From: a virus
Length of the DNA: 28,631 nt
Direction: 5' to 3' (one strand)
Virus record (IMG/VR): IMGVR_UViG_3300035212_000510
Coordinates: 1-28,631 of that record
The notes below the pieces were generated by a model. It saw only the letters and a list, made by a program, of their open reading frames with translations, did no database searches and was not told the DNA's origin. The translations under genes were made by a program, and so were the position numbers. Positions 19 through 16,197 of this stretch are shown in pieces; the first letter of the stretch is position 1; every line of letters begins with the position of its first letter.

Positions 19-47
19 ATTATATACCCAAAACCATTTATTGTCAA
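19..47 (-). promoter_or_regulatory. sigma70-type promoter, cassette copy 1
   Basis: On the minus strand TTGACA (42-47) and TATAAT (19-24) are separated by exactly 17 bases, a perfect consensus pair. The downstream bases match the leader of the copy at 14903-14931. It should drive a gene that lies beyond the left edge of the window. The -35 box lies directly behind the stop codon of the gene at 51-323. Confidence 0.85.
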
Positions 48-50
48 ATT

Positions 51-323
51 TTAGCGTTTGTCGCAATACTCAAAAAGTATCCATTTTGCACGATTCAGGG
101 CTTGACGGGCGTCCTCGGCTCGCATATAGTCAACCTCGCCGTGCTCGGTGTTAATCATTTCTTGGGCATCACTCATTAAACTAGCGGCCATCATTGCAGG
201 ACCTGAGAAACGTAAAGTAATACTTTGTTCTACAGCCTCACGCATTTGGGCCTCTGTGCAACCATACATTTTGATTTCACGGGTACGTTGTATGTCACGT
301 GATACTGCGGCTGATAAGTTCAT
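51..323 (-). CDS. small conserved-type phage protein, 90 aa, unknown function
   Basis: This is an unrecognised 90-residue protein with no signal peptide, membrane segment or metal motif. It is mostly helical in character, with alternating charged and Ala/Met-rich stretches around residues 40-55 (SGPAMMAASLMSDAQEM). The ATG start is supported by an AGGAGC Shine-Dalgarno sequence just upstream and by a consensus promoter at 354-382. The stop codon TAA is followed immediately by the next promoter cassette, so the gene is probably a stand-alone early unit. It looks like the accessory early genes of T4-like phages, but no function can be assigned. Confidence 0.75.
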   Translation of the reverse strand: MNLSAAVSRDIQRTREIKMYGCTEAQMREAVEQSITLRFSGPAMMAASLMSDAQEMINTEHGEVDYMRAEDARQALNRAKWILFEYCDKR

Positions 324-353
324 TGAAAGCTCCTTTTGACTGAATAAGACTCT

Positions 354-382
354 ATTATATACCCAAAACCATTTATTGTCAA
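354..382 (-). promoter_or_regulatory. sigma70-type promoter, cassette copy 2
   Basis: TTGACA (377-382) and TATAAT (354-359) have a 17-base spacer that is identical to copy 1. Transcription should begin near 347. The leader contains TCTTATTCAGT and AGGAGC, nearly the same as the leader of the copy at 15172-15200. It drives the gene at 51-323. Confidence 0.9.
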
Positions 383-386
383 ATTT

Positions 387-611
387 TTAGACACGAATTT
401 CAAAAGCAAATTCAGTGCCGGCCCTAGTGACATAAATCTTATGTCCATAAACCGTGATATAACCCCATTCACCATCTAGGTAAATGTCGTGCGGGTCCTT
501 TTCAATAGTAACATTACGGACTATTTCGCAGAAACCATTGCGCCATGTGGGCATTTTCTGTTTGAAATACTTGTCGTTGTCACGTTGATTAATAAAGATT
601 TTTGATTTCAT
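387..611 (-). CDS. small phage protein, 74 aa, unknown function, probably leaderless
   Basis: The reading frame is open from a GTG at 626, but that codon lies inside the spacer and -10 region of its own promoter. The ATG at 611 (MKSKIFINQR) is therefore the likely start. This ATG begins six bases after TATAAT, exactly where RNA should start, so the message has no room for a Shine-Dalgarno sequence and is predicted to be leaderless. The protein is basic in its first half and has a beta-rich second half (DGEWGYITVYGHKIYVTRAG). No family was recognised. Its TAA stop abuts the next promoter cassette. Confidence 0.65.
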   Translation of the reverse strand: MKSKIFINQRDNDKYFKQKMPTWRNGFCEIVRNVTIEKDPHDIYLDGEWGYITVYGHKIYVTRAGTEFAFEIRV

Positions 612-617
612 AAATGT

Positions 618-646
618 ATTATACACCCAAAACCATTTATTGTCAA
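618..646 (-). promoter_or_regulatory. sigma70-type promoter, cassette copy 3
   Basis: TTGACA (641-646) and TATAAT (618-623) are 17 bases apart, and the spacer differs from copies 1 and 2 only in its last base. The TGA inside TTGACA is also the stop codon of the gene at 643-909. The predicted start of transcription coincides with the ATG at 611. Confidence 0.88.
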
Positions 647-909
647 ATTCTGTATGAGCAATAACCTCGGATTTTGCTTTGTTTATTGGTAAAGCTTTCG
701 TTGAATTTTACTTCATAGCCTTTGGCTTTAAGAACTGCCAACAATGTTGATAGGTCACAATCTTCCTCGAGGAAAGCATTAGCACCATTTTGATAACTAT
801 AAGGTGTAATCTTATCAGCGATACCAAACTTGACCAAACGTGCTTTGGGAAAACGTGCCCAAGCGTGTCCCGGGTCACCGAATACTTTGATAGAAATTTT
901 CTTAGTCAT
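643..909 (-). CDS. small conserved phage protein, 88 aa (GDPGHAW / EEDCDLSTL family)
   Basis: The protein has the pattern KVFGDPGHAWARF near the N-terminus, GIADKITPYSYQNG in the middle and EEDCDLSTLLAVLKAKGY before a basic C-terminus. From memory this pattern is widespread in phages of many hosts, but I know no established function. A GAGTCC sequence lies before the ATG and promoter copy 4 lies upstream. The reading frame ends at a TGA that is part of the -35 hexamer of the next promoter, so the C-terminus may have been set by the arrival of that cassette. Confidence 0.8.
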   Translation of the reverse strand: MTKKISIKVFGDPGHAWARFPKARLVKFGIADKITPYSYQNGANAFLEEDCDLSTLLAVLKAKGYEVKFNESFTNKQSKIRGYCSYRI

Positions 910-941
910 TTTGAGTCCTTTAGTTAACTGTCTAAGATTCT

Positions 942-970
942 ATTATAGACCCAAAATGATTTATTGTCAA
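942..970 (-). promoter_or_regulatory. sigma70-type promoter, cassette copy 4
   Basis: TTGACA (965-970) and TATAAT (942-947) are 17 bases apart. The spacer keeps ATAAAT and TTTTGGGT of the other copies. The leader TAGAATCTTAGACAGTTAA closely matches that of copies 1 and 5. It drives the gene at 643-909 and directly follows the stop of clpP. Confidence 0.88.
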
Positions 971-974
971 ATTT

Positions 975-1568
975 TTAGCTGTTGCGATTTTGCAACACTT
1001 TATCGGCTAAGCCATAAGCTACGGCCTCATTAGCACTCATAAAGAAATCACGTTCCATATCCTTTGCAAGTTCCTCAAAAGTTTTACCTGCGCTATTATG
1101 GTCAACATAAATTTGTGTTAGAGACTTCTTCATTGCTAAAATCTCTTTAACTTGAATTTCCATATCAGTAGCTTGACCACGGGCACCACCTGATGGTTGA
1201 TGAATCATATGGCGAGCATTGGGTAGGATACTACGTTTACCTTTTGCACCTGATTGACCTAGCAAGCTACCCATTGAACAGGCTTGACCCATTACAATAG
1301 TTTGTACATCTGGTTTGACAAATTGCATACAATCATAAATTGCCATACCAGCAGTTACACTACCACCCGGACTATTGATATAGATGCTAATGTCTTTTTC
1401 TGGGTCTTCGCTTTCTAAGTATAATAGTTGTGCAACGATTAAGTTTGCCATTTGGTCGTGTACTTCACCTTCAAGCAAGATTACACGGTCACGTAATAGA
1501 CGACTATAAATGTCATAGCTACGTTCGCCTTTACTTGTTTGTTCTAATACCATTGGGACTAAGCTCAT
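975..1568 (-). CDS. clpP: ATP-dependent Clp protease proteolytic subunit ClpP
   Basis: This is a full-length, 197-residue ClpP serine peptidase, the barrel that degrades proteins unfolded by ClpX. The catalytic triad is intact: Ser98 in GQACSMG, His123 in HMIHQPSGG and Asp174 in ERDFFMS. The [17 protein letters not shown] segment of the oligomer core is at residues 63-79. The N-terminus ([25 protein letters not shown]) fits the mature bacterial form without a long propeptide. An AAGGAAAC Shine-Dalgarno sequence and a TTGTAA-N17-TATAAT promoter precede it. It stands 2.8 kb from clpX with unrelated genes between, and seems to be transcribed by itself. Function is near certain by motif; partnership with the phage ClpX is inferred. 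Confidence 0.97.
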
Positions 1569-2547: not shown

Positions 2548-3240
2548 ATGAAAATAGGGTTTGATGTTATTAGTGACTTGAATCTAATCCCAGATGAAGA
2601 ATTCAATTGGGAAGGAAAAGCGACAAGTCTATATTGTATTATAGCAGGTAACATCAGTAATGATTTACGTACTATACATCAAACCCTAAATTATTTGAGT
2701 AAATTTTATCAAGGTATATTTTATACTGCAGGAGCACTAGAATATGAAGGTGCTCCCAGTATACCTATCCGAACTGAAGAAATAGTTAAAATATGTAAAA
2801 CAATACGCAATATTGCATATTTACATAATCATGTTGTGGTTATCGATGGTGTTGCTATCATCGGTACAAATGGATGGTATGCTACTAATTTCCCCAACAT
2901 CCTTGTTTCTCCCGAAGAAATAGAAATCGAACGATACGAAGACCTAGGTTATTTGGGTAACACAATAGAAAAACTTCAATTACATTTAGATGTTAAAAAA
3001 GTAATAATTGTTAGTCATTCTGTTCCCGGACAAGATTTATTCTTTAAAGAATACCCACAATCTATACACGAAATTCCATCACTACAATTAGCGTTAGTAA
3101 AAGATTCAGAGAGTAAAATACATCACTGGATATTTGGTACTTATGGAAAAACTGTTGATATTGTAATTAATGGAATTAACTACGTTAACAACAGTTATTA
3201 TAAAAGAAATCCCTACTGGGCTAAACGAATAGAAATTTAA
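2548..3240 (+). CDS. metallophosphoesterase-like protein with eroded metal sites, 230 aa
   Basis: The order of segments is that of calcineurin-like phosphoesterases, but key ligands are changed. ISDLNL (residues 8-13) stands where SDLHL is expected, so DxH has become DxN. AGNISND (33-39) replaces GDISND, GALE (62-65) replaces GNHE, SHSVP (156-160) keeps one His of the THHxP motif, and GTYG (197-200) replaces GHTH. The fold-defining GVAIIGTNGWYA strand (101-112) is intact, as is the length. The frame also opens at a TTG three bases earlier, but ATG at 2548 is more likely. The reading frame is undamaged, so this looks like a maintained pseudoenzyme rather than a decaying gene. It ends tail to tail with clpS, sharing four bases. 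Confidence 0.7.
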   Translation: MKIGFDVISDLNLIPDEEFNWEGKATSLYCIIAGNISNDLRTIHQTLNYLSKFYQGIFYTAGALEYEGAPSIPIRTEEIVKICKTIRNIAYLHNHVVVIDGVAIIGTNGWYATNFPNILVSPEEIEIERYEDLGYLGNTIEKLQLHLDVKKVIIVSHSVPGQDLFFKEYPQSIHEIPSLQLALVKDSESKIHHWIFGTYGKTVDIVINGINYVNNSYYKRNPYWAKRIEI

Positions 3241-3542
3241 GTTTCAGACTCTACTTTGACCTGTAGAGGATATCCTTGACTACGTGCTGAAACAGTTACT
3301 TCAATGCCTTTTTGTTCAGCAATTTCATATGGTAACACAGCAACAACTGCACTACCTTGATTATGAATATTCTCGGTAATAGTAGCCGCGGTATCATTCG
3401 TATAATTGAAGTATTCAATTAAACTACCTACAACAAATTCCATACTTGTTACCTCATCGTTAAGATAAATGATTTTGAACAACGGAGGCTCTGCTAAACT
3501 CAAGTTAGGTTTAATTTTGATTTTTGTTTCTGTTTTAGACAT
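3237..3542 (-). CDS. clpS: ClpS-like N-degron adaptor for Clp protease
   Basis: This is a 101-residue ClpS homologue. The signature FKIIYLNDEVTSMEFVVGSLIEYF (residues 22-45) holds the residues that bind the alpha-amino group of N-degron substrates: Asn28, Asp29 and Glu30, with Met34 at the hydrophobic pocket. His60 in ENIHNQGSAVV corresponds to the conserved pocket His. The N-terminal extension of about 20 residues, which in bacterial ClpS helps delivery to ClpA, is present. ClpS normally serves ClpA or ClpC, and no ClpA is seen in this window, so it may act on the host enzyme or be adapted to the phage ClpX. No Shine-Dalgarno sequence is present; a late-type CTAAATAC lies four bases before the ATG. 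Confidence 0.92.
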   Translation of the reverse strand: MSKTETKIKIKPNLSLAEPPLFKIIYLNDEVTSMEFVVGSLIEYFNYTNDTAATITENIHNQGSAVVAVLPYEIAEQKGIEVTVSARSQGYPLQVKVESET

Positions 3543-3605: not shown

Positions 3606-4049
3606 TCACTTAGTGTAACTAATAGCAATAGCTTTTGGTTTCTTTTCTTCAGGAACTTTACGTTCTAGCAAAACGGATAAGATACCGTCTTTAATAGATG
3701 CGTTAGCCACCTCAATATGTTCAGCTAATGGAAATTCTCTTGTAAAATCTCTACTGCTAATACCATGATGTAAGTATTCTACGTCAACACTATCTATGCG
3801 TTTGTTTTCGCCCTTGATAATCAATGTACGATTATCTAATTCAACATTAATTTCTCCCTCAGTAAAGCCAGCAACAGCAACTTCGATTGTAAATAAATCG
3901 TCAGTGTGTTTGACTACATTGTATGGGGGATAGTTAGATTGTCCTTGATTAGTTAATCGTGCAAGTTCATCAAACATACTATCGAAACCGATACCTAGTT
4001 TGTGAATTGATGGAATATCTAAGGAACGAAGGGTTAAAGTGCGTGTCAT
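3606..4049 (-). CDS. small heat-shock protein, Hsp20/IbpA type
   Basis: This is a 147-residue alpha-crystallin-domain chaperone that holds unfolded proteins in a refoldable state. GIGFDSMFDELARL (19-32) and YPPYNVVKHTDDLFTIEVAVAGFTEGEI match the enterobacterial IbpA pattern. The domain runs from about residue 40 to 135, including DNRTLIIKGE, YLHHGISSRDFTREFPL and DGILSVLLERKVPEEKKP, followed by the C-terminal IAI motif that docks between dimers. The frame is open 18 codons further upstream, but the ATG at 4049 has a good AGGAGA site and begins like IbpA. Hsp20 genes are common in T4-like aquatic phages. A late-type motif lies 62 bases upstream. Confidence 0.94.
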   Translation of the reverse strand: MTRTLTLRSLDIPSIHKLGIGFDSMFDELARLTNQGQSNYPPYNVVKHTDDLFTIEVAVAGFTEGEINVELDNRTLIIKGENKRIDSVDVEYLHHGISSRDFTREFPLAEHIEVANASIKDGILSVLLERKVPEEKKPKAIAISYTK

Positions 4050-4108
4050 TTTATTTCTCCTATTAAGCAAGTTATGACTATTTTCAGACCCGACCATCGG
4101 CATCTGAA

Positions 4109-4160: not shown

Positions 4161-4379
4161 TTAATACAACTTTTTTGGAAGACTTTGGTCACGTAAAAAC
4201 TTGTCCCAACGTCTTTTAGCCTGACTTTTAGCAAGTTTACGTTTCACGGTGGGTTTCACAAACTCTTGACGATCACGTACCTCTTGTAAGGTCCCGTAAT
4301 CTGTTATCAACTTTTTGAATTTGCGTAATGCTTTTTCAGCATTACCATCGTTAACTATAACTTTGCGTCCTCTAATCAT
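4161..4379 (-). CDS. rpsU: ribosomal protein bS21
   Basis: This is a 72-residue bS21 homologue. It is strongly basic and keeps the family pattern: an N-terminal strand (RKVIVNDGNAEKALRKFKKL), the EVRDRQEFVKPTVKRK segment at about 34-49, and a basic C-terminus (KSQAKRRWDKFLRDQ). bS21 sits on the small subunit near the anti-Shine-Dalgarno end of 16S rRNA, so a phage copy could bias host ribosomes towards phage mRNAs. That effect is inferred. It is interesting beside the number of start codons here that lack Shine-Dalgarno sequences. The ATG overlaps the clpX stop as ATGA, so the two are co-translated. Confidence 0.93.
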   Translation of the reverse strand: MIRGRKVIVNDGNAEKALRKFKKLITDYGTLQEVRDRQEFVKPTVKRKLAKSQAKRRWDKFLRDQSLPKKLY

Positions 4380-5581
4380 ATAACAGCTTTTGGTTGTAAA
4401 ATTTGCTCCTGACTAATATTTATCTTTTTAATGTTATTTTCACGGTATTTCTTAGTGTTATACATATGAGGCATTAAAACTTTCTCAATTTCTGTGTGTA
4501 ATCCACGTGCTCCTGTTTTTAATTTCATAGTATTTTCAGCTAGCTGAGAGATAGCATCAGCACTAAATTCTAGCTCAATATCATCTAAACTTAACAAATA
4601 CTTATATTGGTCAATATAGTTATTTTTAACACTAGTAAGGACCTTAATCATTTCTTCCTTAGTCAAATTCTCTACATTTACAGTTGTAGTGAAACGGCCA
4701 ATAAACTCAGGAATCATACCAAATCGGGTTAGATCATCAGGGGTAACTAAACTCAAATCACCTTCTTTACGTGCATCTTTGATATCAGCACCAAAGCCAA
4801 TACTAGTGCCGTTCAGTCTATTGTTTACTATATCTTTTAACCCTACAAATGCACCACCTGCAATGAATAGAATATTCTTGGTATTGATTTCCATCATATC
4901 CCCACCGGGATGCTTGCGTCCGCCACCGGCTGGAATTCTACACACTGTTCCTTCAACTAACTTGAGTAGTGCTTGTTGTACTCCCTCACCTGACACATCA
5001 CGTGTAATACTTGCACCTTCACTCTTGCGGGCAATCTTATCAATTTCATCAACAAACACAATACCTCGTTCTGCTAATTTAATATCTCCACCGGCTGCAT
5101 TGAGTAGCATAGTAATCATTGACTCTACATCATCCCCTACATACCCTGCTTCAGTCAAACTAGTAGCATCGGCAACAATAAAGGGCACTTCTAAATATTT
5201 TGCGACAGTTTTTGCCAGTAAAGTTTTACCTGAACCAGTTGGTCCTACTAATAGTACGTTACCTTTAGAAATTTCTAAATCTTTGGGAGGAGAATTAATA
5301 CGTTTATAATGATTAGCAATGGCTACACTAAGTACTATCTTAGCATTATCTTGTCCTACAATATGTAGGTCTAAAAACTCTTTAATTGTTTCTGGATCAT
5401 ATCTGGGTTGTTCTTTATCTGCTGATGGTTCATCAACATTTTTATCATCAATCATTAGTTGAGTACATAGTTCAATACAGTCGCTACAAATAGCAACATC
5501 TTCCCCGACAATTAGTTTGTTAACGGCATCTTTGTGATTACCGCAGAATGAGCAATGGCTTAGTTTTGTTTCAGTTGACAT
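4376..5581 (-). CDS. clpX: Clp protease ATP-binding subunit ClpX
   Basis: This is a complete 401-residue AAA+ unfoldase. The N-terminal C4 zinc domain uses Cys10, Cys13, Cys32 and Cys35. Walker A is GPTGSGKT (113-120), Walker B VFVDEID (175-181), the pore-1 loop GYVG (146-149), the RKH loop at 222-224, the arginine-finger region ends in GRF (295-297), and sensor 2 is GARGL (357-361). The ClpP-docking loop IGF (261-263) is intact, so it can be expected to bind a ClpP ring, either the phage one or the host one. No Shine-Dalgarno sequence is seen; GATAAGTATTAAT precedes the ATG, a variant of the late motif. It is the first gene of an overlapping pair with bS21. Confidence 0.97.
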
Positions 5582-11684: not shown

Positions 11685-12155
11685 TTATCCTGAGAATGGC
11701 CACGCTGTTGTTGCGACAAAAGGTGGACGGGGTTTAAGTTCTATTGTTTCAATACTCTCATTATACACGTCCTCGTCAATTTTGTCAACAACGAATGGAC
11801 CCAAAATAGTGATACAATCACCCTCAAGTTGCCAATTATTATCACCTTCGAGTACCCAATTTAATCCAGTATCTTCCCAACCTTGCTCAATAGTTTCTTT
11901 CTCCTCATCGGTAAAACTATCATCAAACTCAAATTCTACATAGCATAGGTCATCAAGCTCACATCCCCAGCCCAAATTAGGATCAACATTATGTTCGGTA
12001 TCATCACTATAAGGTAATTCATCTTCGTGTTCAACAAATCCTTGCCCCCAACGATATGTTTCAGTAACACTCCATCTACGTTCGTTATCAACTATATCAT
12101 ATAGTGCTTCAATGGATTTTTTATGTTGTGGTTTGATACGATATAGTATGGTCAT
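11685..12155 (-). CDS. acidic protein, 156 aa, unknown function
   Basis: The protein is acidic and Trp-rich (RRWSVTETYRWGQG, NWVLEGDNNWQLEGD). The second half ends in a Pro-rich stretch (LKPRPPFVATTAW). It resembles the acidic protein at 9081-10322 only in charge. It overlaps the upstream small membrane protein by four bases (ATGA). Its 3' part contains a complete TTGACA-N17-TATAAT promoter for the ligase, so the codon choice near residues 121-133 may be constrained by that site. No family was recognised. Confidence 0.7.
   Translation of the reverse strand: MTILYRIKPQHKKSIEALYDIVDNERRWSVTETYRWGQGFVEHEDELPYSDDTEHNVDPNLGWGCELDDLCYVEFEFDDSFTDEEKETIEQGWEDTGLNWVLEGDNNWQLEGDCITILGPFVVDKIDEDVYNESIETIELKPRPPFVATTAWPFSG
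11761..11789 (-). promoter_or_regulatory. perfect sigma70 promoter inside the gene before ligase
   Basis: TTGACA (11784-11789) and TATAAT (11761-11766) are 17 bases apart, lying within the coding part of the gene at 11685-12155. RNA would start near 11754 and reach the ligase ATG after about 75 bases. Confidence 0.75.
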
Positions 12156-14603: not shown

Positions 14604-14870
14604 TTAAACTTCTGTGCCGTACTCGTAAAACTTAACTGACGGGTCCAAACGCTTTAATTCAAATGCCGCACTAGTCAATGCCTTGTACCGGGCGTTAACC
14701 TGACTACGTGGAAGTTCGCCGTCACACGTAAGATTTTCAGGACTCAAATCACTATCGATTGAATCAGCAATTTTTTGACGGTCACTTGCATTTTGCAAGC
14801 TAAGTTCCTTGTTACCAAAGATTTTAGAAAAAGAATTTTTACGATCCACATACGCTGTTAATGCTGACAT
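14604..14870 (-). CDS. small phage protein, 88 aa, unknown function
   Basis: The protein is mixed and soluble, with no membrane segment (MSALTAYVDRKNSFSKIFGN at the start). A strong AAGGAAAC ribosome site and promoter copy 5 precede the ATG. It is the first gene after that promoter, followed closely by the 246-residue protein. No relative was recognised. Confidence 0.7.
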   Translation of the reverse strand: MSALTAYVDRKNSFSKIFGNKELSLQNASDRQKIADSIDSDLSPENLTCDGELPRSQVNARYKALTSAAFELKRLDPSVKFYEYGTEV

Positions 14871-14902: not shown

Positions 14903-14931
14903 ATTATAGCACAATGCCCATTTATTGTCAA
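14903..14931 (-). promoter_or_regulatory. sigma70-type promoter, cassette copy 5
   Basis: TTGACA (14926-14931) and TATAAT (14903-14908) are 17 bases apart. The first half of the spacer (ATAAATGG) and the leader (TAGAATCTTAAACAGTTAA) match copies 1 and 4, but the second spacer half differs. The TGA of TTGACA is the stop codon of the gene at 14928-15143. Confidence 0.88.
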
Positions 14932-15143
14932 ATTTTGGAGTATTCAGGAACCACAGATTCACGTGCGGCCAAAATAATATCACGGACACGTTCACGGTCT
15001 ATACTGTCTCCCCAAAACTCTTCGCCTTCAGGAAGACGGCATTTGTAAAGTTGAGTAGCAAGACTGATTTGGGTACTAGTAAAGCCCTCTGGGTATAAAC
15101 CATTTGGACCATAAAAATCAAGCATATATTGTGTGAAATTCAT
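14928..15143 (-). CDS. small phage protein, 71 aa, unknown function
   Basis: The frame opens at 15200, but the promoter of this gene occupies 15172-15200, so the ATG at 15143 (MNFTQYMLDFYGPNGLYP) with its AGGAG site is the start. The protein is acidic with a DSIDRERVRDIILAARES helix. The last codon is followed by the TGA that is also part of the next -35 box. No relative was recognised. Confidence 0.72.
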   Translation of the reverse strand: MNFTQYMLDFYGPNGLYPEGFTSTQISLATQLYKCRLPEGEEFWGDSIDRERVRDIILAARESVVPEYSKI

Positions 15144-15171: not shown

Positions 15172-15200
15172 ATTATAGACCCAAATCCATTTAATGTCAA
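15172..15200 (-). promoter_or_regulatory. sigma70-type promoter, cassette copy 6
   Basis: TTGACA (15195-15200) and TATAAT (15172-15177) are 17 bases apart with a spacer related to copies 1-4. The leader matches that of copy 2 (TCTTATTCAGTCAAA then AGGAGC). It directly follows the methyltransferase stop codon. Confidence 0.88.
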
Positions 15201-15202
15201 AT

Positions 15203-16162
15203 TTAGGGTAGTACTTCAAACACGGTGTCGTCCAAGACTAGGTTACTAGTCTGGGTTGTATCAATGCGTAATTTCATCTTATCAAACATAACTACATCAC
15301 GTTCAATTAAAATACAATTTCTATCTAATTTATTACAAGCTATTCCTGTGGAACCAGATCCGGCAAAGGTATCTAATACTGTATCACCTTTGTTACTTAA
15401 CAGTTCAATAAAGTATTCTAATATCTCAGTAGGCTTTTGTGTTGGGTGAATTTTGTTCTTGCCTAACCCACCACTATATGTAATAGTATTTGGGATGACA
15501 CATTGAATCAATCCCTCTGTAGTACGTTTTCTATCTGCTAACATCTTTGTTGCTTCTTTTTTAGCATTAGCAAAAATACTATCTAAGTCGTTAAGATTGT
15601 CAGCATCCTTAATCATTTTATAAACAATACTACTAATTTTGTCAGCACTAGCATAACGTTCTACAATAGTACCCTCAATACTATCAGCATTGAATGTACG
15701 CTTACCACCTGGCTTAATACCAAATAGTACATACTCACACGCACTTACAGGATTGACCTGACGATTAAAAGGAACTGCGGCTGGTTTCTTCCAAGTGAAT
15801 ACACGTTTCGGTTCAAAGCCTGCATCTTCCATAATCTTCCATAGATATGAAACATATTGGTCACTAATAAAGATTGCGAATGTACCGCCCTTACGTAGTT
15901 TTGTAAACCAGAACTTAGCCCAGCTATTCATTTGATTTAGAAACTCTGTATGTTCAACACTATCCCAATCTTGTTCAAAGCTTTCGCTAAATTTCTGATT
16001 GTGAATAGTTGTTTTGTTCTTACCAGTTTCTTTATCAATCCAGACTGGTTGAGCACCATCTTCGCTGATGTTATAGGGCGGGTCAGTAAGCAATAAGTCA
16101 ATAGACAAATTAGCTATGTCATCACCGGCGAGTGTGCAATCTTTGTTTATACAGGTAATCAT
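15203..16162 (-). CDS. DNA methyltransferase, beta class (DPPY)
   Basis: The catalytic motif DPPY (27-30, in LLLTDPPYNIS) comes before the AdoMet-binding FAGSGSTG motif (266-273), the beta-class order. The HPTQKP motif (239-244) typical of these enzymes precedes the FAGSG strand. DPPY suggests N6-adenine, though N4-cytosine is possible. An insertion of about 60 residues lies at 160-225. The ATG at 16162 begins six bases after the -10 of the promoter at 16169-16197, so the transcript is predicted leaderless. The upstream in-frame TTG at 16180 lies inside the promoter. It probably modifies phage DNA against host restriction. Confidence 0.93.
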   Translation of the reverse strand: MITCINKDCTLAGDDIANLSIDLLLTDPPYNISEDGAQPVWIDKETGKNKTTIHNQKFSESFEQDWDSVEHTEFLNQMNSWAKFWFTKLRKGGTFAIFISDQYVSYLWKIMEDAGFEPKRVFTWKKPAAVPFNRQVNPVSACEYVLFGIKPGGKRTFNADSIEGTIVERYASADKISSIVYKMIKDADNLNDLDSIFANAKKEATKMLADRKRTTEGLIQCVIPNTITYSGGLGKNKIHPTQKPTEILEYFIELLSNKGDTVLDTFAGSGSTGIACNKLDRNCILIERDVVMFDKMKLRIDTTQTSNLVLDDTVFEVLP

Positions 16163-16168
16163 ACACGT

Positions 16169-16197
16169 ATGATAACACAAAAACTATTATGTGTCAA
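16169..16197 (-). promoter_or_regulatory. sigma70 promoter of the methyltransferase
   Basis: TTGACA (16192-16197) and TATCAT (16169-16174) are 17 bases apart. Exactly six bases separate the -10 from the ATG at 16162, as at 618-646. The TGA of TTGACA is the stop codon of the gene at 16194-17693. Confidence 0.75.

Follow-up and report, generated by a model that had tools for sequence, protein, structure and literature searches.

A repeated putative promoter-and-leader module ahead of small shuffled genes in uncultured, probably T4-type huge phages

Putative promoter copies and small genes in the window

The window, meaning the whole stretch of DNA that was analysed, was an entire IMG/VR virus record of 28,631 bases and a fragment of the phage genome. 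The initial annotation had listed six promoter-like sites, and all six were present on the minus strand, at 19-47, 354-382, 618-646, 942-970, 14903-14931 and 15172-15200, each with a perfect TTGACA-N17-TATAAT. When up to two mismatches were allowed, TTGACA-N17-TATAAT was found at 23 sites in the window compared with 9.6 expected, and none of 100 shuffled sequences reached 23. The module was laid out as TTGACA-ATAAATGGTTTTGGGTN-TATAAT, a leader of 26 to 34 nt and an ATG, about 60 bases in total. A seventh exact TTGACA-N17-TATAAT at 11760-11788 was not assigned to the family: it is part of the coding sequence of a conserved gene, its spacer is unrelated, and it represents a coding coincidence conserved in relatives.

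The first array lies downstream of clpP (975-1568, minus strand), which was used as a module-independent anchor. Module copy 1 (942-970, TTGACAATAAATCATTTTGGGTCTATAAT) starts 4 nt after clpP and is followed by a leader (941-910) and an ORF of 88 amino acids (643-909, minus strand; MTKKISIKVFGDPGHAW..) from a family of 25 members. The TGA of this ORF (645-643) is part of the TTGACA of copy 2 (618-646, TTGACAATAAATGGTTTTGGGTGTATAAT), which is leaderless, with 6 nt between the -10 box and the ATG at 611. The ORF behind copy 2 (387-611, minus strand; 74 amino acids, MKSKIFINQRDNDKYF..) is predicted to have a leaderless mRNA, and 13 of the 24 members of its family are leaderless. Copy 3 (354-382, TTGACAATAAATGGTTTTGGGTATATAAT) has a leader at 353-324 (gtcttattcagtcaaaaggagctttca) and precedes an ORF of 90 amino acids (51-323, minus strand; MNLSAAVSRDIQ..) from a family of 32, and copy 4 (19-47) has the same core as copy 3, with its leader and gene lost at the record end.

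The other two copies lie behind a DNA methyltransferase gene (15203-16180). Copy 5 (15172-15200, TTGACATTAAATGGATTTGGGTCTATAAT) begins 2 nt after that gene and is followed by its leader (15171-15144) and by an ORF of 71 amino acids (14928-15143, minus strand; MNFTQYMLDFYGPNG..), the TGA of which lies within the TTGACA of copy 6. Copy 6 (14903-14931, TTGACAATAAATGGGCATTGTGCTATAAT) has a leader at 14902-14871 and precedes an ORF of 88 amino acids (14604-14870, minus strand; MSALTAYVDRKNSFSK..) from a family of 36. The upstream stop codon is thus inside TTGACA at two junctions in the window (643-645 and 14928-14930), and each complete copy in the window is followed by a small ORF without a known function.

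It was proposed that the spacer is kept with few changes in all six copies and that the leaders fall into two types. The first description held for five copies, which had no changes from ATAAATGGTTTTGGGT (19-47, 354-382 and 618-646) or two changes (942-970, with CA for GG, and 15172-15200), but the spacer at 14903-14931 (ATAAATGGGCATTGTGC) had six mismatches, and its distal part, GGGCATTGTGC, placed that copy in an extended -10 (TGn) subtype. The leaders were more diverse than two types, with atcttagacagttaactaaaggactc behind the copy ending at 970, atcttaaacagttaaataaaggaaac at 14931 and gtcttattcagtcaaaaggagc at both 382 and 15200; the copy at 646-618 had no leader at all, and that of the copy at 47 was cut by the record end.

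The same phage fragment encodes ClpP and ClpX, both recognized by Pfam matches, as well as ClpS-like and small heat-shock-like ORFs recognized by eye. These Clp and heat-shock-type ORFs lie at 975-1568, 4376-5581, 3237-3542 and 3606-4103.

Anatomy and distribution of the module

We then analyzed a collection of 663 distinct copies, all from metagenome assemblies. Since the copies came largely from contigs with an exact motif, the reported consensus strength is inflated; the loci anchored on clpP are the least biased part of the data. When sites were picked by the two hexamers alone, ignoring the spacer, 251 of the 297 sites had the spacer. Spacer positions 8-12 (TAAAT) were nearly invariant and positions 16-22 (TTTGGGT) strongly conserved, while positions 13-15 and 23 were looser. 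The leader after the -10 box was CTTAnaCAGTtAA..AAAGGA, and the distance from the -10 box to the ORF start was either 26 to 34 nt or exactly 6 nt. Almost all of the 663 copies had the previous gene directly 5' and a small ORF directly 3'. An ORF start was found within 110 nt of 648 copies, and these ORFs had a median length of about 90 amino acids (133 clusters, of which 72 were singletons).

Two promoter subtypes, GGGTn and the extended -10 TGn, were distinguished. Boxes other than TATAAT made up 28% of the -10 boxes in the extended -10 subtype compared with 6% in the GGGTn subtype (P 9e-9), and the weaker -10 box of the extended -10 subtype was also seen in the less biased subset (P 0.013). 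A weak -10 box offset by TGn is the kind of compensation that a sigma70 promoter would be expected to show.

Of the 282 modules in the first set that had an ORF, 29 had their ATG exactly 6 nt after the -10 box. At this distance the ATG would be at about +1, and the mRNA of the copy at 646-618 would therefore be leaderless. Some of the gene families behind the module mixed leaderless and leadered members. A GIY-YIG nuclease (Pfam PF01541, E 5e-6) was a recurrent small gene behind the module, at only 24 of the 663 copies (G001:C1:103336-103602, minus strand, and 23 other sites; representative of 112 amino acids, MNSKIVRKRRTDRNQVIYFIQ..), and its start was leaderless in 24 of 24 copies.

A hairpin within 60 nt upstream was found for 9.6% of the internal copies and 12.4% of the first or solo copies, compared with about 2% in shuffled sequences. 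A terminator-promoter unit was therefore rejected, as hairpins precede only a minority of modules.

The 31 fixed bases of the module matched 71 stretches in IMG/VR, and a looser pattern matched at least 120 viral stretches there. Eighteen long records were scanned and had 2 to 24 copies each (24 for a 524-kb record, 10 for a 349-kb record); the reversed pattern, used as a control, was absent from all 18. The reversed motif also had no match in the viral contigs, which is a weak control because none was expected anyway. A host origin of the module was rejected, as the contigs of GTDB genomes held no exact match and only two matches to the looser pattern, in unrelated MAGs. Megablast revealed no near relatives among sequenced phages, and the module was unmatched in that phage collection. 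Judged by one exonuclease, the closest isolates were PA5oct, GAP32 and XaC1 (about 48% identity), and these do not have the spacer.

Two long records that carry the module (G001 and G002) encode a major capsid protein of the T4 gp23 family (E 4e-99 and 5e-99) and a UvsX/RecA-like protein. An Rpb2-type RNA polymerase subunit was looked for in these two records and none was found, and a phage multisubunit RNA polymerase was rejected on this ground. Together, these features point to an uncultured lineage of T4-type huge phages that presumably uses the host RNA polymerase; the assignment comes from the two long records, and the window is a fragment. One of them (G001, 524,565 bp) has two clpP loci (within 63000-73584 and 458969-469550) and two sets of module arrays, together with only one gp23. 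The doubled sets possibly represent a duplication or a composite assembly.

Gene shuffling at the module and divergence of its spacer

Module-gene-module junctions were compact. The upstream stop codon was inside TTGACA (a gap of -4) at 122 of 291 such junctions, and most of the others had 1 to 5 nt between the upstream stop and the next module. Using clpP loci found independently of the module, we found the module right after clpP at 22 of 81 loci, and at least eight different genes followed it there. The remaining 59 loci, mostly from more distant relatives, had no module at this site, so it is not the case that every relative has inherited the copies at fixed ancestral loci. The initial annotation had asked whether the module stays while the gene that it carries differs between relatives; this was the case after clpP and, as a shuffling of gene families with many alternative neighbours each, throughout the collection.

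The two sides of the module had different histories. The 5' bases tracked the upstream gene and the leader tracked the downstream gene, while the promoter core tracked neither. Between copies with the same downstream family and different upstream genes, the identity was at background until the module and rose in the leader; between copies with the same upstream gene and different downstream families, the identity dropped at the module. Disjoint pairs gave 69 cases in which the gene was the same and its upstream neighbour was replaced, and 25 in which the upstream gene was the same and the following gene was replaced. Most of the mass of explicit breakpoints was inside the module. A few converse breakpoint pairs were leader-length shifts of one gene and were excluded by family from the count of disjoint pairs. 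As an example, two loci (L009 and L264) have the clpP end and the whole module in common and then carry different genes, and the gene in L264 is identical to one in L110, where it stands behind another module and another neighbour.

The location of breakpoints alone is weak evidence, since the module fills nearly all of the intergenic DNA and breakpoints within it are partly expected for any viable rearrangement. The in-register junctions and the block-wise core changes coupled to swaps are stronger evidence. The junctions were precise, with one module kept in register. The core differences were clustered in blocks (variance 6.6 compared with about 2.5, a value reached by fewer than one permutation in 2000) and were commoner where the upstream gene had been swapped. 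When both flanks were unchanged, a core block was replaced in only about 3 of 47 pairs, with modest P values. All P values and E-values from pairs assume independence, which the greedy disjoint pairing only approximates.

To compare the spacer with coding sequence, we used third codon positions as the reference. TAAAT diverged by 1.6-2% compared with 8.5-16% at third codon positions, and in pairs that were alike on both flanks, the rates of the hexamers (P 4e-10) and of TAAAT (P 5e-5) were far lower than that of third codon positions, with much smaller P values in the larger set. The slow divergence of TAAAT indicated that it is under purifying selection. Positions 7, 13-15 and 23 evolved at the third-codon rate. 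For TTTGGGT, the divergence was 0.067 compared with 0.085 at third positions in the closer set (P 0.14), and 0.103 compared with 0.159 in the wider set (P 2e-5). Over the long term, the spacer identity stayed at about 0.85 while four-fold sites fell to 0.39, and the module identity was flat across all levels of coding divergence. The plateau of the distal spacer could reflect re-copying, and it would also fit weak purifying selection. Taken together, the short-term rates and the long-term plateau suggest that one part of the spacer is selected and another part behaves as if repeatedly re-copied. The initial annotation had attributed the conservation of the spacer to copying; for TAAAT selection is the better explanation, while TTTGGGT fits copying as well as weak constraint.

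Module copies from the same contig resembled each other more than copies from different contigs did, both here and in sister lineages, and here the likeness extended to freely varying positions, for example 7, 15 and 23. The sister lineages keep TTGACAATAAATCC but have other distal spacers and leaders. At positions 16-22, their copies had an identity of 0.52 within a contig compared with 0.38 between contigs (permutation sd 0.017), a pattern that would be predicted by concerted evolution. Position 7, directly after TTGACA, flipped between A and T in 37% of near-identical close pairs, faster than expected.

It may also be that the spacer is simply needed for function, through polymerase contacts, DNA shape or a regulator, and that gene order changes by other means, with the homology of the modules playing no causal part. 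The low divergence of TAAAT speaks for this explanation, as do the recurrence of ATAAAT in sister lineages with other distal halves and the alternation of GGGTn and TGTGC as -10 extensions. However, constraint alone does not readily account for the short-term divergence of TTTGGGT and positions 7, 13-15 and 23, which equals or approaches that of third codon positions, for the clustered changes coupled to neighbour swaps, for the excess of within-contig likeness at free positions or for junctions that retain one module in register. We consider it unlikely that constraint is the whole explanation.

Alternatively, a phage or host protein may bind the spacer, for example at a dyad CCCAAA..TTTGGG around the -35 box, and control all copies together. 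Arms of at least 10 bp were found in 14 copies compared with 4.0 expected, and in the copy before MITTLAQFIQ (L293) the -35 box is surrounded by an inverted repeat with perfect arms of 14 bp, TATACACCCAATAC / GTATTGGGTGTATA. In several copies of a sister lineage (L431 and L416), the spacer holds a palindrome, CAATAAAT-CCA-ATTTATTG, between the -35 and -10 boxes. However, arms of 5-9 bp were no commoner than after permuting the upstream sequences, and many of the copies with long arms belong to one clpP-linked group. The paired positions did not covary beyond permutation, and a dyad operator was rejected as a general cause. Such common control is very unlikely to explain the conservation.

Vertical inheritance of old copies at fixed loci is extremely unlikely: clpP and MTKKISIKVF remain paired in seven related loci, the core variants of which are similar, but elsewhere the same clpP site has other genes or no module, each family has many alternative neighbours, and the module identity does not follow coding divergence. 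Repeats of 30-60 bp are a known assembly hazard in metagenomes, but wrong joins are just as hard to credit, since 47 adjacency types were each seen in two or more versions with over 3% divergence (26 of them in at least three), ten gene families had at least two different right-hand neighbours each supported in this way, and the joins often carried several core differences instead of one shared k-mer.

A promoter that may double as a joint for gene exchange

On the basis of the swaps at the clpP site, the variety of neighbours and the tracking of the flanks, we consider it likely that the promoter-plus-leader cassette of about 60 bp is both a strong consensus promoter of the sigma70 type and a homology joint for gene exchange. 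A promoter of the host sigma70 type with a ribosome-binding leader of fixed length would allow independent transcription and translation of any small ORF behind the module, most likely at an early stage of infection. Each small gene has a near-identical copy on either side, and these copies could therefore serve as short homologies at which phage recombination, possibly by the encoded UvsX/RecA-like protein, joins unrelated neighbours precisely. Swaps, insertions and losses would then leave one intact promoter with complete ORFs on either side, and the TGA of TTGACA often provides the stop for the gene upstream. Selection maintains the hexamers and TAAAT, while the lineage-specific distal spacer and leader are apparently kept alike by recurrent exchange among copies.

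A further-reaching reading, which we regard as quite doubtful, is that the arrays form a plug-in cassette system in which each unit supplies a stop, a promoter, a leader and a joint, and that the leaderless GIY-YIG nuclease cuts recipient arrays and drives the homing of a shared early anti-host library. If it were true, any exchange at any copy would yield working genes.

The initial annotation had compared the module with mobile promoter cassettes of T4-type phages. PeSL (promoter early, stem-loop) cassettes have been reported to bring about the shuffling of genes among T4-like phages (PMC4503421, which refers to Arbiol et al. 2010, doi 10.1093/gbe/evq006, and Comeau et al. 2014, doi 10.1093/gbe/evu129). 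As PeSL cassettes are described there, the resemblance lies in repeated promoters, here predicted to be of the early sigma70 type, between small, hypervariable, shuffled genes of a T4-type phage, the T4-type capsid here being that of G001 and G002. Set against that description, the module has a sequence-conserved spacer, an upstream stop codon that is often inside the -35 box, and a stem-loop before only some 10-12% of copies. The comparison thus stands for gene shuffling at a promoter and fails for the stem-loop, and we did not class the module as a PeSL because most copies have none. The SAS/ESAS of Cluster K mycobacteriophages, a 13-bp repeat (GGGATAGGAGCCC) at the ribosome-binding site with a suggested role in translation initiation (PMC3203893), is a parallel at the level of translation. 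It likewise consists of a short repeat and precedes numerous small genes from different families, and the upstream stop can fall within it, but it is not a -35/-10 promoter and differs from the module in sequence and position.

Escherichia phage RB49 (NC_005066) has 20 module-like sites, each with a near-consensus promoter, a common leader and a small ORF. The -10 box is 24-46 nt from the ATG, and the promoter often directly follows the previous gene, as in the module. However, the RB49 spacers are diverse (mean identity 0.33), and there is no sequence similarity to the module. With a test nearly identical to that used on the module, a hairpin preceded 5 of the 20 sites. In several early-type promoters of RB49, the 17-bp spacer is a palindrome (for example GGGGATCGGTGATCCCC) that recurs nearly unchanged, and Cronobacter phage GAP32 (NC_019401; 11183, 11575 and 14725) has its own repeated promoter with a common spacer around ATGGTTAGAGTACTT.

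Putative mobile promoters, or promoter propagation, in prokaryotes involve near-identical promoters before unrelated genes, and there the promoter would have been copied to new places. Here, by contrast, it is the genes that are replaced, and the promoter between them keeps its register. Given the similar layout in RB49, the module is not a new mechanism but a known idea in a striking new form. One near-identical signal of about 60 bases stands before dozens of small interchangeable genes that are swapped between phages, with the joins inside the signal. The 663 copies and about 130 gene clusters represent a large natural data set in which a promoter is visibly a recombination joint and in which position-by-position rates separate selected bases from re-copied ones. 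Almost all of the genes that can be found with the 31-base motif are of unknown function, and the motif provides a handle for finding and delimiting those genes of uncultured huge phages that probably serve early interactions with the host.
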